Below are positions 22,436 to 28,749 of a stretch of 64,000 nt of DNA, piece after piece. The notes below the pieces were generated by a model that did no database searches, was not told the DNA's origin, and saw nothing but the letters and a program-made list of their open reading frames with translations. The stretch lies in the NCBI GenBank assembly GCA_025054775.1, contig JANWZA010000011.1:62001-126000 (forward strand), written 5' to 3'. The DNA is from Microscillaceae bacterium. Its GTDB lineage: Bacteria; Bacteroidota; Bacteroidia; Cytophagales; Microscillaceae. The number at the start of each line of letters is the position of its first letter. Positions within the stretch are counted from its first letter, which is position 1. The position numbers were made by a program, and so were the translations under genes.

Positions 22436-22531
22436 GAAGTTGGTCCAAAAATACAATTACACTTTTTTGGGTTTGGAAGTGCAAAGTAAGTATTTTTTTG
22501 CAAATAACTTACGAACAAAAACAAATAAAAA

Positions 22532-22590: not shown

Positions 22591-22641
22591 CAGGATTTTA
22601 TCTTTCAATAAATCCACAAACGCTCTACTCTCAGGCACAAT

Positions 22642-22668
22642 AATAAAAAGCCCCCACAGAGTGAGGGC
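22642..22668 (-). terminator. tracrRNA terminator
   Basis: Minus-strand stem GCCCTCAC / GTGGGGGC (8 bp including one G-U, loop TCT) followed by TTTTTATT. Confidence 0.8.
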
Positions 22669-22740
22669 ATAGGCTTTCGCCTGCGACATTACGTCTTATT
22701 GTGAAAAGATTACAATAAGATCAAAAAAGTTTTTTACATT
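22642..22740 (-). ncRNA. tracrRNA of the type II-C CRISPR system
   Basis: On the minus strand, 22740 to about 22697 reads as an anti-repeat: AATGTAAAAAAC matches the array repeat, followed after interruptions by TTGTAATC and TCACAA. It can therefore pair with nearly the whole crRNA repeat, perfectly over the last 18 nt of the repeat (through AAAAAAGTTTTTTACATT). Downstream come a small GC hairpin AGGC-GAAA-GCCT (22671-22682) and a terminator hairpin, GCCCTCAC-TCT-GTGGGGGC (22650-22668), followed by a T-rich tail. Length is about 99 nt. It guides Cas9 and RNase III processing of pre-crRNA. Confidence 0.88.
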
Positions 22741-22742
22741 TG
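22735..22742 (+). promoter_or_regulatory. Candidate -7 box for cas9, on the end of the anti-repeat
   Basis: TACATTTG fits TAnnTTTG and lies about 52 nt before the cas9 ATG. Its first six bases are the end of the repeat-like sequence (TACATT). No TTTG is seen at -33. It is separated by only two bases from the opposing tracrRNA -7 box. Confidence 0.45.
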
Positions 22743-22744
22743 TG

Positions 22745-22776
22745 CAAAGGTACGAAATAAAAAATTATTCTCCAAA
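22745..22776 (-). promoter_or_regulatory. tracrRNA promoter
   Basis: Minus strand TTTG (22773-22776), 20 nt, then TACCTTTG (22745-22752), both exact matches to the Bacteroidota promoter. The predicted start falls within a few bases of 22740, exactly where the anti-repeat begins. Confidence 0.75.
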
Positions 22777-22794: not shown

Positions 22795-23793
22795 ATGAAA
22801 ACTCTCGGTTTAGACATCGGTACAAATTCTATCGGCTTTGCTTTGCTAGACGATACGCAAGGTGAAATTTTGTGGCAAGGGGTGCATATTTTCCAAGAAG
22901 GGGTGAACAGAAACAAAGGACGTGAGGAAAGCAAAAATGCTGAACGCAGAGCCGCCCGCCAAGCACGAAAATTGACTCGGAGAAGGCACGACCGCAAGGT
23001 TACTCTCATGCGCCTGTTGCAAGCCATAGGGCTTTGCCCTACCTCAGAGGAAGAACTAGCCCACTGGAAAGCCCTAGACCCTTATGAACTCAGAAAAAGA
23101 GGACTCGACGAAAAACTCTCTCCTTTTGAGTTCGGTAGGGCTATTTATCACCTCAACCAAAGGCGCGGATTCAAAAGTAACAGAAAAGCAACCTCAGAAG
23201 AAGAAAAAGGAACTCTCTTTAAGGGAGATAAAAAAATGGGAAAAAGGGGCATCGATGAAATTAAAGACGCTCTGCAAAATCAAAACTTTCGTACCTTAGG
23301 TGAATATTTGTATTCCCTCAACCCACACGACGAACGCCGACGCAACCGCTACACCTTGCGTGCTTTCTACGAACAGGAATTTGACCTGCTTTGGAAAAAA
23401 CAAAACCCTACTATTGAAGCTAATTTTGAGGAAGTAGTTAGGAAATTTGTTCATAAAAAATTCCAGCCCAAAGTATTGCAACACGACTGGAAATTCCTTA
23501 TCAAAGATTACATTATTTTTTACCAAAGAAAACTCAAATCGCAAAAAGAACTTGTAGGCAAATGTACGCTTGAACCTAAAAAAAGAAGATGCCCCAGTAG
23601 TATGCTTATTTTTCAGGAGTTTAGGTTACTGGATAAACTACATTCTATCCGAATTACAAGAGAAACTGATACCCAAGATAGTTCTCTTTCATCAAAAAAA
23701 AAAGTTCGGGAAAAAGAACCAGTATTAAAAGTCTTATTTCTTTGTTTGAAAAGCCACTCGATACCCAAGAAAAACACAAAGATACTCCTTTAA
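22795..23793 (+). CDS. cas9: Cas9, N-terminal part (RuvC-I, bridge helix, REC), frameshifted
   Basis: 332 residues as read. RuvC-I is KTLGLDIGTNSIG with catalytic D7; the arginine-rich bridge helix follows (about 45-75, with RRAARQARKLTRRRHDRK), then the REC segment including HLNQRRGFKSNRK and LVGKCTLEPKKRRCP. Homology to Cas9 stops at an A10 tract (23694-23703); the last 30 codons after it are out-of-frame residues ending at TAA 23791-23793. A -1 shift at the tract joins it to the frame that carries the rest, giving a 1112-residue protein, the usual type II-C size. The start codon follows an A-rich leader, normal for Bacteroidota. Confidence 0.85.
   Translation: MKTLGLDIGTNSIGFALLDDTQGEILWQGVHIFQEGVNRNKGREESKNAERRAARQARKLTRRRHDRKVTLMRLLQAIGLCPTSEEELAHWKALDPYELRKRGLDEKLSPFEFGRAIYHLNQRRGFKSNRKATSEEEKGTLFKGDKKMGKRGIDEIKDALQNQNFRTLGEYLYSLNPHDERRRNRYTLRAFYEQEFDLLWKKQNPTIEANFEEVVRKFVHKKFQPKVLQHDWKFLIKDYIIFYQRKLKSQKELVGKCTLEPKKRRCPSSMLIFQEFRLLDKLHSIRITRETDTQDSSLSSKKKVREKEPVLKVLFLCLKSHSIPKKNTKILL
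23694..23703 (+). other. A10 slippery tract in cas9
   Basis: Ten adenines, read in the upstream frame as TCA AAA AAA AAA GTT. This includes the slippery heptamer A AAA AAA in the correct phase for -1 slippage, and long A tracts also cause RNA polymerase slippage. The two cas9 frames are both open only between 23682 and 23793, and this is the obvious place for the join. It could equally be a real one-base deletion or a read error. Confidence 0.8.
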
Positions 23794-26132
23794 AGCCTGA
23801 AGAATTACAGTTAAAGCCTGAAGAATTACAGTTGGCTTTTGAAGAATTTAATCTCAAAAAAGAATGGACAATAAAAGATTTGCTTAAATTACTCAATCTC
23901 CAAAACTGTAAAACCAACTATTCTCCCGAAGAGAAATTTAAGGGAAATACTACCGCCCATGCCCTTGCTAGTGTGTTTGGAGAAGAAAAATGGCTTAGTT
24001 TTTCAGAAGACAAAAAGCATCATATTTGGGAAGTATGCTATAATGCTACCGACGAAGATTGGCTACTGAATTATGGCAAAACCCATTGGCAACTCAATGA
24101 GAAGCAACTTGAAAAACTTAAAAAAGTGAGTTTTGAGAAGGATTATGCCCGCTTGAGCTACAAAGCCCTCGCAAAACTCGTCCCAAAAATGAAACAAGGC
24201 TTATCTTATGCCGATGCCTGCCAAGAATTAGGCTATCACCATTCGGAAAGTGCCAGCAAATATGATGAAAAATTAGGACTTTTAGGAGAGCCTCCAAATA
24301 TTCGCAATCCTATCGTACAGCAAGCCCTCTTTGAAATCCGAAAAGTAGTAAATGCGATTATTCAACAATTTGGCAAACCTGATATTATTCGCATAGAGTT
24401 GGCTCGTGAACTAAAAAATAGCAAAGAACATCGCGAAGAAGAACAAAAAAAGATTAAAAAAAATGAGGAGAATAATCAACGTATCAAAAAGATACTGCTC
24501 CAAGAATTGCCTGCTCTTGGAGGCAAAGAGGAAAATATTAGCCGAAATGACGTTATAAAGTACAAACTTTGGGAGGAGTGCAAAGGAATATGCCCTTATA
24601 CAGGCAGAAATGTATCGGTAGCACAACTATTTAATGGCGAGTTCGAGGTAGAACACATTTTGCCCTATAGCCGAACCCTTGACGATAGCTTTGCCAATAA
24701 AACCATTTGTGAACGAGAGTTCAACCTAAAAAAAGGCAACCTAACCCCCTGGGAAATGTATGCACAAGGCATAATTACCAAAGAACACTACAATGCTATT
24801 TTGCAAAGAGTTAAAAATTTTAGCTACAACAAATACAAAAAATTTGAGCAAGAGGAATTAGATGAGGACTTTATTAAACGACAACTGAACGACACGGCTT
24901 ACATTGCGCGCGAAGCTAAAAAATGGATTTGTACCATTCTGGACGAAAACAACGTACAAGTTTCCAAAGGAGAGGCTACTAGAACGCTCGGAAGGCTGTG
25001 GGGGCTAGACAAAATCCTTAATAAATATCATTTAAACATAAAAAATCGCGAAGACCAACGACACCACGCCATCGATGCTATAATAGTGGCTTGCACTACC
25101 CGAAGCGTATTGCAAAAACTTTCTACCTATAAAAGCAAAGGACTAAAACACGAAAAAAAAGATTTTCCAGCTCCTTGGGAAAGCTTTCATTCTGACGTAA
25201 AAAAGGCAGTCAATCAAATCTTGGTACACTATAAAATCCGTAAGCGGTTGCGTGGTCAATTGCATAACGAAACCATTTATGGGGCCGTCTTGGATAAAAA
25301 TAGAAACCACCTCACTGATGAGTCTAAACAAAAAGTATATGCAGTTCGCAAGCCCTTGCATAGCCTTACCCCTGCTCAAGTTCACAAAATTGCAGACAAA
25401 ACCATCAGGGAATTAGTAAAACAAAGAATTAGAGAATTTGGAGCAGACCCCAATGCGAAGAAGTGCAAAATCCCCAAAAACTGCTTTAATGAACCTATTT
25501 ATATGCCATGCAAAAATGGCAGAGGAAACCCTATTAAAAAGGTAAGGATACATGATGTAGCAAAGCACAACATTTTGTTACGAGAGTTTTCTGACGTAAA
25601 ACCTGAAAAAAAACGCCCCCACAAGCACGCTTACGTGGAAACAGAGAATAACCACCATATTGTGATTTATGAAGAAAGCGAATGGGATAGCAAAAAAAAG
25701 AAAACCACTACCAAGCAAACAGGTGAAACAATTTCCTTGCTAGAGGCTATTGAACGCAAAAAACAAGGCTTGCCTGTAATCCAAACAGATTTGGGCGAAG
25801 GAAAAAGGTTTTTATTGAGCCTCATGAAAAATGAAATGGTACTTTTGGATAACCCAGACGAGCATTTTTTGACAGCCAAATTGCGCTGGGACGAGCAGAA
25901 AAAACAATTTTTTGACCAAAATGACCAACCCCTAAGCCACCAAGAACTAAGCAAATACCTTTACAGAGTACAAAAATTTGACAAGAACCTGAGTATCGTC
26001 TTTCGGCATCATTTGGCTTCAAAAGTAGATGAGGTGACAAAAGAAGCAGGCTACTTCAATCGCAGCGCCTCTAAATTCAAGGGCATTAAGGTAGAAATTA
26101 GTATTTTGGGAGAAATTTCGCCTGCTAAGTAA
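23742..26132 (+). CDS. cas9: Cas9, C-terminal part (RuvC-II, HNH, RuvC-III, PAM-interacting)
   Basis: The frame is open from 23682; the first ATG is at 23742, but this is probably not a true start. From that ATG: RuvC-II IRIELARELKNS (E219), HNH core FEVEHILPYSRTLDDS with H305 and N328, and RuvC-III QRHHAIDAIIVACTT (H442, D445), then a 340-residue C-terminal region for the guide and PAM. All nuclease residues are intact, so nothing but the frameshift suggests decay. In the joined protein these sit near 535, 621/644 and 758/761. A 7-residue unit LKPEELQ occurs twice near the start (exact 21-bp duplication). Confidence 0.88.
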   Translation: MFEKPLDTQEKHKDTPLKPEELQLKPEELQLAFEEFNLKKEWTIKDLLKLLNLQNCKTNYSPEEKFKGNTTAHALASVFGEEKWLSFSEDKKHHIWEVCYNATDEDWLLNYGKTHWQLNEKQLEKLKKVSFEKDYARLSYKALAKLVPKMKQGLSYADACQELGYHHSESASKYDEKLGLLGEPPNIRNPIVQQALFEIRKVVNAIIQQFGKPDIIRIELARELKNSKEHREEEQKKIKKNEENNQRIKKILLQELPALGGKEENISRNDVIKYKLWEECKGICPYTGRNVSVAQLFNGEFEVEHILPYSRTLDDSFANKTICEREFNLKKGNLTPWEMYAQGIITKEHYNAILQRVKNFSYNKYKKFEQEELDEDFIKRQLNDTAYIAREAKKWICTILDENNVQVSKGEATRTLGRLWGLDKILNKYHLNIKNREDQRHHAIDAIIVACTTRSVLQKLSTYKSKGLKHEKKDFPAPWESFHSDVKKAVNQILVHYKIRKRLRGQLHNETIYGAVLDKNRNHLTDESKQKVYAVRKPLHSLTPAQVHKIADKTIRELVKQRIREFGADPNAKKCKIPKNCFNEPIYMPCKNGRGNPIKKVRIHDVAKHNILLREFSDVKPEKKRPHKHAYVETENNHHIVIYEESEWDSKKKKTTTKQTGETISLLEAIERKKQGLPVIQTDLGEGKRFLLSLMKNEMVLLDNPDEHFLTAKLRWDEQKKQFFDQNDQPLSHQELSKYLYRVQKFDKNLSIVFRHHLASKVDEVTKEAGYFNRSASKFKGIKVEISILGEISPAK
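23792..23833 (+). repeat. Exact 21-bp tandem duplication inside cas9
   Basis: 23792-23812 and 23813-23833 are identical, beginning AAAGCCTGAAG, and encode LKPEELQ twice in the downstream cas9 frame. The duplication keeps frame. It starts at the stop of the upstream frame and about 90 bp after the A10 tract. Confidence 0.85.
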
Positions 26133-26210: not shown

Positions 26211-27101
26211 ATGCTTAAAAGAACACTTTTATTTGTCAATCCTGTACGTATCCGTACCAAAAACGAGCAGCTGATAATTCAGTTGGAAAATGAAACACAA
26301 CCCATCCCTATTGAAGATGTGGGCTACATAGTCTTGGATAATGCCGAAATTTACATTTCGCCTCCTGCTATTGAAAAGTGCTTGCAATACAATGTAGCTA
26401 TTGTCTATTGTGATAGCAAGCACTTGCCTTGCGGTATGTTGCTCAACTTGGAAGCTAATACCCTCCAACAAGAACGCTTTGAGGCTCAAATCCAAACTTC
26501 TGAGCCACTCAAAAAGCAGCTTTGGAAACAAATCGTAGAAGCTAAAATCTTGAATCAAGCCCTGCTTTTAGAAAAAATAGGGCAAAAGGCTGAAGTCCTT
26601 TTCCAAAAAAGCAAACAAGTGCAAAGTGGAGATACTACCCAACAGGAAGCCCAAGCTGCTCGTATCTATTGGGCAAACCTCTTCCCCAAAGAAATAGCAT
26701 TTTACAGAGCCAGAACGGGCAATCCACCTAATCATTTGCTCAACTATGGCTATGCTATCATTAGAGCAGCTATGGCACGAGCCCTAGCAGGAGCAGGGCT
26801 ATTAGCTACCCTAGGCTTGCACCACCACAACCGCTATAATGCCTTCTGCCTTGCAGACGATATGATGGAACCTTACCGACCATGGGTAGATAGAGCCGTT
26901 TGCGAACTAGTGGGCTCAGGAGAAGACTACCAAGCAATAAACAAAACGCACAAAATACGACTACTCAACGTTTTGGCAGAAGACTCCGAACTGAAAAACG
27001 AAACCATACCTCTTATGAATGCTATGCAAACCTCAGCTGTTTCGCTGGTTAAGTGTTTTATGGGAAAGAGCAGAAAATTAGTGTTTCCTACAATTTTTTG
27101 A
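26211..27101 (+). CDS. cas1: Cas1 integrase, type II
   Basis: 296 residues, standard for type II Cas1. An N-terminal beta domain (to about 80) is followed by the helical catalytic domain, with E146 in QQEAQAARIYW, H205 in GLHHHNRYNAF, and D217/E220 in LADDMMEPYRPW as the metal ligands. Cas1 with Cas2 inserts new spacers at the first repeat. The gene is intact, so the adaptation part of the locus looks functional. cas2 begins 2 nt after its stop. No csn2 or cas4 is present, which makes this subtype II-C. Confidence 0.95.
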   Translation: MLKRTLLFVNPVRIRTKNEQLIIQLENETQPIPIEDVGYIVLDNAEIYISPPAIEKCLQYNVAIVYCDSKHLPCGMLLNLEANTLQQERFEAQIQTSEPLKKQLWKQIVEAKILNQALLLEKIGQKAEVLFQKSKQVQSGDTTQQEAQAARIYWANLFPKEIAFYRARTGNPPNHLLNYGYAIIRAAMARALAGAGLLATLGLHHHNRYNAFCLADDMMEPYRPWVDRAVCELVGSGEDYQAINKTHKIRLLNVLAEDSELKNETIPLMNAMQTSAVSLVKCFMGKSRKLVFPTIF

Positions 27102-27103
27102 CT

Positions 27104-27472
27104 ATGCCACGCAAAAAGAAAAAATTTTTGTCCACTCACCAAACTGCCCTTAGTGCTTATAGAATTATGTGGATTTTTGTTTTTTTTGATTTACCCACAG
27201 AAACCTCCGAGTTGCGAAAAGAGTACACCCTGTTTCGCAAAAAACTGCTCAAAGACGGATTTCAAATGCAGCAGTTTTCGGTATATCGCCGCTTTTGTGG
27301 AAGCCGCGAAAATGCAGACGTACACATCAGACGAGTGAGAAAAGCCGTTCCCCCCGAAGGAATGGTAAGCATTTTGCTTGTAACCGACAAGCAATTTGGG
27401 GAGATGATAAACATTGTGGGTGCAAAACGGCAGCCACCCCCCAAACCACCCCAACAATTGACCTTGTTGTAA
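27104..27472 (+). CDS. cas2: Cas2, type II
   Basis: I chose the ATG at 27104 (MPRKKKKFL), just after the cas1 stop; an upstream in-frame ATG at 27053 would run 16 codons inside cas1 and is not typical. 122 residues. The core strand WIFVFFDLPTETSELRKEY carries the conserved aspartate, then KKLLKDGFQMQQFSVYRRFC and VSILLVTDKQFGEM. The C-terminus is proline-rich (QPPPKPPQQ). Cas2 dimers hold two Cas1 dimers in the spacer-integration complex. Intact. Confidence 0.93.
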   Translation: MPRKKKKFLSTHQTALSAYRIMWIFVFFDLPTETSELRKEYTLFRKKLLKDGFQMQQFSVYRRFCGSRENADVHIRRVRKAVPPEGMVSILLVTDKQFGEMINIVGAKRQPPPKPPQQLTLL

Positions 27473-27596: not shown

Positions 27597-28749
27597 AATG
27601 TAAAAAACTTTTTTTTGTAATCAAATCACAACGGTACAATGCGTGTAAAGCCAGTAATCTTTAATGTAAAAAACTTTTTTTTGTAATCAAATCACAACTA
27701 GGAATGGATTTGAAGAAAATAAATGAAAAATGTAAAAAACTTTTTTTTGTAATCAAATCACAACGTGTAATGCGTGTAAAGCCAGTAATCTTTAATGTAA
27801 AAAACTTTTTTTTGTAATCAAATCACAACAGTTTGTCTATCAATTTAGACAAAGCCTCAATGTAAAAAACTTTTTTTTGTAATCAAATCACAACGATACC
27901 AACCCAACTCCGAACCAACTCTTTAATGTAAAAAACTTTTTTTTGTAATCAAATCACAACCACTATATCGCTTGCCTTGAGGGTAAACTTAATGTAAAAA
28001 ACTTTTTTTTGTAATCAAATCACAACACCGCCACCTGCTACCCCCGAAAGCCCTTTAATGTAAAAAACTTTTTTTTGTAATCAAATCACAACACACATAA
28101 CGTACATAACGCCAACTATAGAATGTAAAAAACTTTTTTTTGTAATCAAATCACAACCCGTGCGCTAACTTGGCTTGAAGCCTTTTTAATGTAAAAAACT
28201 TTTTTTTGTAATCAAATCACAACAAGTAATAGTTAATTGTGTTGTGTTCATAAAATGTAAAAAACTTTTTTTTGTAATCAAATCACAACATATCACGTTG
28301 ACGCAAATCGGGGTCGTCCAATGTAAAAAACTTTTTTTTGTAATCAAATCACAACATAATCGTCTAAGCGTTGCTTTTGCTCAGTAATGTAAAAAACTTT
28401 TTTTTGTAATCAAATCACAACTCGTTGCGAAACGGAGAAAATTGCAATTTTAATGTAAAAAACTTTTTTTTGTAATCAAATCACAACTGTTTTCTGGCTT
28501 AGCCGCACAAAGCGTTTAATGTAAAAAACTTTTTTTTGTAATCAAATCACAACAGATATTGCAAGTTTGCAGTGCGAAAATCAAATGTAAAAAACTTTTT
28601 TTTGTAATCAAATCACAACTAATGATGCGGGCGTGAATTATGTAGCAAGAATGTAAAAAACTTTTTTTTGTAATCAAATCAGCACAGAAACGTTTTTTTG
28701 TGGTTCAGAGTTTCAATGTAAAAAACTTTTTTTGTATACAAATATTATC
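27597..28749 (-). CRISPR. Type II-C CRISPR array: 17 repeats of 36 bp, 17 spacers of 29-30 bp, plus a degenerate terminal repeat
   Basis: On the plus strand the repeat starts AATGTAAAAAAC, then T8, then GTAATCAAATCACAAC. On the minus strand it starts GTTGTG, the usual start of type II repeats, and that is the strand able to pair with the tracrRNA; hence crRNA is assigned to the minus strand. Repeats begin at 27597, 27663, 27729, 27794, 27859, 27925, 27991 and so on to 28650. The first 16 are identical. The 17th (28650-28685) ends AGCAC in place of ACAAC. The last (28715-28749) is strongly degenerate. Spacers 1 and 3 share 25 nt. Confidence 0.97.

Follow-up and report, generated by a model that had tools for sequence, protein, structure and literature searches.

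Opposed −7-like boxes between the tracrRNA gene and cas9 of a Bacteroidota type II-C CRISPR locus

Genes and features of the locus

The window (the whole 64-kb stretch of DNA that was analysed) contains a type II-C CRISPR locus made up of a tracrRNA gene on the minus strand, cas9, cas1 and cas2 on the plus strand and an array of 17 repeats. A Cas9-family nuclease was recognized across two plus-strand ORFs, the first (22795–23793) encoding the N-terminal part (TIGR01865 positions 2–310) and the second (23742–26132) encoding the remainder (TIGR01865 positions 304–1070). The gene as a whole (22795–26132) is frameshifted at a run of ten A (23694–23703), which may be a real defect, slippage or a sequencing error; a perfect 21 bp tandem duplication (TTAAAGCCTGAAGAATTACAG twice) occupies 23790–23831, shortly past the frameshift. 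Downstream, also on the plus strand, are a type II (NMENI) cas1 (26211–27101; TIGR03639) and cas2 (27053–27472; TIGR01573 from residue 39), the true start of which probably lies further in than 27053. Neither csn2 nor cas4 was found between cas9 and the array, and no other coding-strand ORF of at least 80 amino acids was present in this interval.

The array (27597–28685; crRNA sense on the minus strand) is built from the repeat GTTGTGATTTGATTACAAAAAAAAGTTTTTTACATT. In the crRNA sense each repeat carries TTTG-N19-TACATT (score 8/8, p = 0.025), with the last two letters of the promoter falling in the spacer; at the level of sequence this element would constitute a repeat-embedded promoter of the Bacteroidetes type. 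The last true repeat (28650–28685) carries two changes, and past the right end of the array a degenerate repeat (28707–28743) keeps TACATT at a shorter spacing from TTTG. Two of the spacers (27633–27662 and 27765–27793) have 25 nt in common, the differences between them being confined, in the crRNA sense, to the final five bases.

From its fold, the tracrRNA was predicted to occupy 22640–22740 on the minus strand, running from a predicted start at 22740 to a terminator-like GC hairpin followed by a T-run; its CACAATAAG core is conserved and was present in relatives. The 43 nt anti-repeat (22698–22740, minus strand) forms 33 pairs with the repeat (duplex energy −31.4 kcal/mol), interrupted by a 7 nt bulge and by a 3 nt internal loop opposite repeat positions 8–10, and the pairing extends to the last base of the repeat. 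The 3′ end of the anti-repeat at 22698 was taken from this duplex, the scripted placement having fallen 5 bases short. The plus strand of the anti-repeat resembles the repeat.

The two −7 boxes upstream of cas9

The predicted tracrRNA is preceded on the minus strand by a perfect −7 box, TACCTTTG (22745–22752), and by a −33 box, TTTG (22773–22776), correctly spaced from it by N20. The complete element (22745–22776) is a perfect match to the Bacteroidetes sigma-A promoter (TTTG-N19–21-TAnnTTTG) with a score of 10/10, which was reached by none of 100 dinucleotide shuffles; only 11 perfect full matches occur in the whole window with both strands counted. Taking the box at −12 to −5, as reported for TAnnTTTG relative to mapped starts in F. 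psychrophilum (PMC9723704), we obtain 22740, the first anti-repeat base, as the predicted start of the tracrRNA. A second, −7-like box, TACATTTG (22735–22742), faces cas9 on the plus strand at a distance of 2 bp from the minus-strand box. Its TACATT (22735–22740) is anti-repeat sequence read from the other strand, its TG (22741–22742) lies outside the anti-repeat, and its predicted start (22747) falls within the tracrRNA −7 box, 48 nt before the cas9 ATG. An earlier, sequence-only reading of this DNA had described the boxes, the 2 bp gap, the N20 spacing, the overlap with the anti-repeat and the plus-strand start inside the tracrRNA −7 box; all of these proved to be exact.

The same reading went on to propose that the two sites compete, as a built-in balance of guide and effector. 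Two face-to-face, mutually exclusive promoters are suggested by the two perfect −7 boxes and by predicted starts that lie inside or at each other's boxes. A perfect plus-strand −7 box (6/6) arose in 3.5% of shuffles of the 92 bp region and a perfect face-to-face pair in 0.09%, although these values overstate the surprise, because pairing with the repeat forces four of the six letters of the plus box. The plus side is also without a −33 box: at spacings of 19–21 the sequence reads ACAA, TACA and TTAC in place of TTTG, the best of which (TTAC, spacing 21) agrees at 2/4 positions, and the resulting combined score of 8 was attained by 20% of shuffles. Together with the counts in relatives given below, this makes competition between the two sites a distinctly unlikely account of the region.

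We think it probable that the region is the divergent tracrRNA–cas9 control region of an ordinary Bacteroidota type II-C CRISPR locus, that the plus box is a passenger of base pairing and that no special competition between guide and effector, or balance of the two, is needed. The tracrRNA would start, from a canonical sigma-A promoter, with the pairing partner of the repeat's final base. Because pairing of the anti-repeat runs right through to the end of a repeat that terminates in TACATT, this motif is forced onto the cas9-sense strand; the end of the repeat would in this manner be copied there through the anti-repeat, and the two adjoining bases would complete the inherited TACATT to TACATTTG. 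The resulting box would be at most a weak start site, with promoter activity on the plus side presumably lacking. The box has no −33 partner because the TTTG of the repeat falls in the internal loop, where repeat positions 8–10 are unpaired and the anti-repeat has AAAG, and because the 7 nt bulge spoils the spacing. This offers a simple reason why repeat-like promoter boxes should lie next to cas9: when an RNA has to pair with a promoter-bearing repeat, it copies the promoter onto the other strand.

Several observations argue against treating the plus box as a passenger. A recognisable −33 element can be missing from F. johnsoniae promoters (as cited in PMC7366714), so that a perfect −7 box might suffice by itself; in terms of its predicted start, the plus box is favourably positioned for cas9; and between 22300 and 22800 only one other plus-strand promoter candidate was found, namely TTTG-N21-TATTTTTT with its box at 22491–22498.

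Comparison with Bacteroidota relatives

Cas9 loci were drawn from 392 Bacteroidota genomes, with 67 above the family cut-off, and were supplemented with named genome-collection loci and with four loci from the order. Among the Cas9 relatives obtained, the nearest belongs to a Microscillaceae metagenome bin (locus L106), with 49% identity in its best segment in one search and 52% in another. Cas9 matches were present in only two of 15 genomes of the family and in seven of 390 genomes of the order (E ≤ 1e-60), no relatives of the window Cas9 were found among viral contigs, and an array pattern search for further repeats of the window type gave few new ones. The full promoter score was counted in 59 of 67 Bacteroidota loci (the window and L041–L106), leaving out L058 (no cas9 start) and L065, L081, L084, L096, L098, L100 and L104 (no accepted anti-repeat within 450 bp). 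Single boxes and pairs were counted in 79 loci, consisting of these 59 and another 20 Bacteroidota loci out of a second set of 25 (dropped were the duplicates L107, L117 and L138, L167 for want of a start and L187 for want of an anti-repeat); in the 20 added loci the anti-repeat ends were located with a short regular expression, which makes them less sure.

A perfect TAnnTTTG was found on the tracrRNA strand in 41 of the 79 loci compared with 7.05 expected from shuffles, although such locus counts are not strict probabilities because related loci are not independent. On the tracrRNA side the full −33/−7 score reached p ≤ 0.05 against dinucleotide shuffles in 19 of the 59 usable loci, and in 15 of 20 other loci with 36 nt repeats and a perfect box the end of the box lay 38–42 nt before the 3′ end of the anti-repeat. 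The placement seen in the window is common to relatives, which bears out the earlier proposal of a canonical promoter from which the tracrRNA begins with the first base of the anti-repeat; the promoter appears to be placed for the transcript, whose ends are predicted, to begin at the anti-repeat.

No such enrichment was obtained on the cas9 strand, where a perfect TAnnTTTG occurred in 10/79 loci with 8.98 expected from shuffles. A cas9 promoter with both −33 and −7 boxes was sought in the 59 loci and was obtained at p ≤ 0.05 in one of them, so that the region searched yielded no conserved promoter on the plus strand. Perfect face-to-face pairs were limited to two of the 79 loci, the window and L118, where about 0.6 would be expected had the observed boxes fallen independently, and the pairing tracrRNA-strand box in L118 is a second, off-place box and not the box whose position suits the tracrRNA best. 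When one mismatch was allowed (each box at least 5/6), pairs were present in 24/79 loci against 18.63 expected. Given that tracrRNA-strand boxes are enriched, whereas cas9-strand boxes and the perfect pair are near expectation, we take the predicted tracrRNA promoter to be real and conserved in place and the paired arrangement not to be. The comparison thereby sorts conserved features (the position of the tracrRNA promoter and the tracrRNA start) from a non-conserved one (the matching cas9 box). The earlier reading had named the absence of paired boxes from relatives as a refutation of its proposal; that is the outcome here, and the proposed guide/effector balance is not supported. Its observation that anti-repeat DNA carries the plus-strand box holds as sequence; a promoter role for that box is supported neither by its frequency on the cas9 strand nor by a −33 element. 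A conserved palindrome spanning both −7 boxes was likewise rejected, as on inspection by eye it is not kept in relatives.

In 23 of the 79 Bacteroidota loci the cas9 ATG lies within 76 bp of the 3′ end of the anti-repeat, and cas9 control signals must therefore often overlap tracrRNA signals somehow. This spacing leaves little room for a separate promoter and, together with the TTTG-N21 candidate upstream in the window, could point to a cas9 promoter situated within the tracrRNA gene or on its far side, giving cas9 a leader that would run antisense to the anti-repeat and might pair with the tracrRNA. We consider such an origin of the cas9 transcript very unlikely, since a terminator-like tracrRNA end intervenes in the window and the search for a conserved plus-strand promoter was negative.

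Four aligned Bacteroidota loci keep TACATT in the anti-repeat. The two plus-strand bases that follow are TG in the window and GG, TA and GC in L041, L046 and L049, respectively, the perfect plus box being peculiar to the window among the four. In L106 an imperfect AACATTTG was identified by eye opposite the tracrRNA promoter, which counts against a passenger origin of the plus box.

In a Flavobacterium-type group (L054, L085, L091–L093, L101, L114, L130 and L137) the tracrRNA 5′ end upstream of cas9 keeps GATTAAA. This is complementary to TTTAATC in the same anti-repeat, and the hairpin so formed could compete with the repeat.

Repeats and anti-repeats in other type II-C loci

These results bear on the little-known question of how II-C loci proportion Cas9 and its two RNAs. 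In the type II-A system of Streptococcus pyogenes a long tracrRNA reportedly guides Cas9 to its own promoter; the likeness to the window is that the tracrRNA locus is tied to cas9 control, and the difference is that control is exerted there by RNA-guided binding and not by overlapping promoters. The II-C locus of Neisseria meningitidis is said to have repeat-embedded promoters. The window, Campylobacter jejuni and N. meningitidis have in common a −10-type box at the end of the repeat, crRNAs started from repeats (as predicted for the window) and a small cas9–cas1–cas2 locus, whereas the box in the window has the Bacteroidetes TTTG-N19-TAnnTT form. For C. jejuni, the repeat-embedded promoters of the II-C locus were established by dRNA-seq (PMC3656092); they have also been noted for C. 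cellulolyticum (PMC7038990) and, with a general predictor, were reported to be absent in Riemerella anatipestifer (PMC5006608). Closer to the window, it has been suggested for F. columnare and F. psychrophilum that a TTG located ∼33–35 bp ahead of every spacer serves as a promoter encoded by the repeat, and a TAnnTTTG box has been proposed for cas9 in F. psychrophilum (PMC8092290, PMC10309648). Both features resemble those of the window; unlike in the window, the F. psychrophilum cas9 box is located in an inserted transposase gene, and neither the tracrRNA promoter nor the −7 half of the repeat-encoded one is described in the text consulted. The searched literature on II-C tracrRNA and cas9 promoters, which takes in few of the subscription papers, yielded no description of an anti-repeat in the role of cas9 promoter. 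Should a repeat-like box beside cas9 prove to drive the gene, a single sequence would be both guide-pairing element and effector promoter.

All 39 distinct 36 nt repeats from non-Bacteroidota II-C loci end in TAnnnT. When scored for sigma-70, the best −35 element of these repeats lay at the same repeat position (N16) in 26/39, and ten of the 39 beat shuffles at p ≤ 0.05. On the cas9-sense strand TAnnnT was kept in 27 of 40 non-Bacteroidota anti-repeats and was lost in the other 13, among them L216, in which the anti-repeat has GACAAT against TACAAT in its Neisseria-type repeat, a single change that abolishes the −10 box on the cas9-facing strand. The first six positions were Watson–Crick paired in 21–23 of 23 aligned anti-repeats, with no G–U pairs. 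The sample of 40 (which includes L218, a locus with an unconfirmed cas9 start) took in 17 of 26 gammaproteobacterial loci; L219 was omitted as a duplicate of L128, and the other eight were left out because the array, the cas9 start or the position of the anti-repeat was missing or because they were not aligned. In the gammaproteobacterial sample, every anti-repeat for which a position with respect to cas9 could be assigned was divergently upstream of it, so that the sample supplied no non-divergent tracrRNA as a contrast for the promoter idea. A repeat-like box beside cas9 and aimed at it thus appears to be a common II-C geometry.

These frequencies, the strict pairing of the first six positions and an anti-repeat-to-ATG distance of only 28–50 bp in some loci would agree with the anti-repeat being the cas9 promoter throughout type II-C, as a repeat copy with a −10/−7 box that is shared by crRNAs and cas9 and for which −33/−35 is dispensable. 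We regard this as quite unlikely: besides the 13 losses, of which the Neisseria-type GACAAT is one, only 4/8 Bacteroidota loci with repeats ending in TAnnTT keep TAnnTT in the anti-repeat, the anti-repeat of the Flavobacterium GATATT group stops short of the repeat end, and repeat pairing alone accounts for retention of the box. It is also unlikely, if slightly less so, that throughout type II-C the tracrRNA starts opposite the last base of the repeat while the opposite strand carries the promoter box of the repeat towards cas9, the anti-repeat doubling as cas9 promoter. If this were true, guides and effector would be driven by one shared element with pairing keeping the register, and the window would be the Bacteroidetes version of it, in which the −7 box is perfect. 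The box is kept strictly in repeats and more loosely in anti-repeats, which fits promoter selection in the former and mere pairing in the latter, and some anti-repeats may drive cas9.

Among the 45–47 nt Bacteroidota repeats, those of L062, L063, L071 and L097 have a full internal TTTG-N19/20-TAnnTT promoter, which in L063 reads TTTG-N19-TAAGTTTG.
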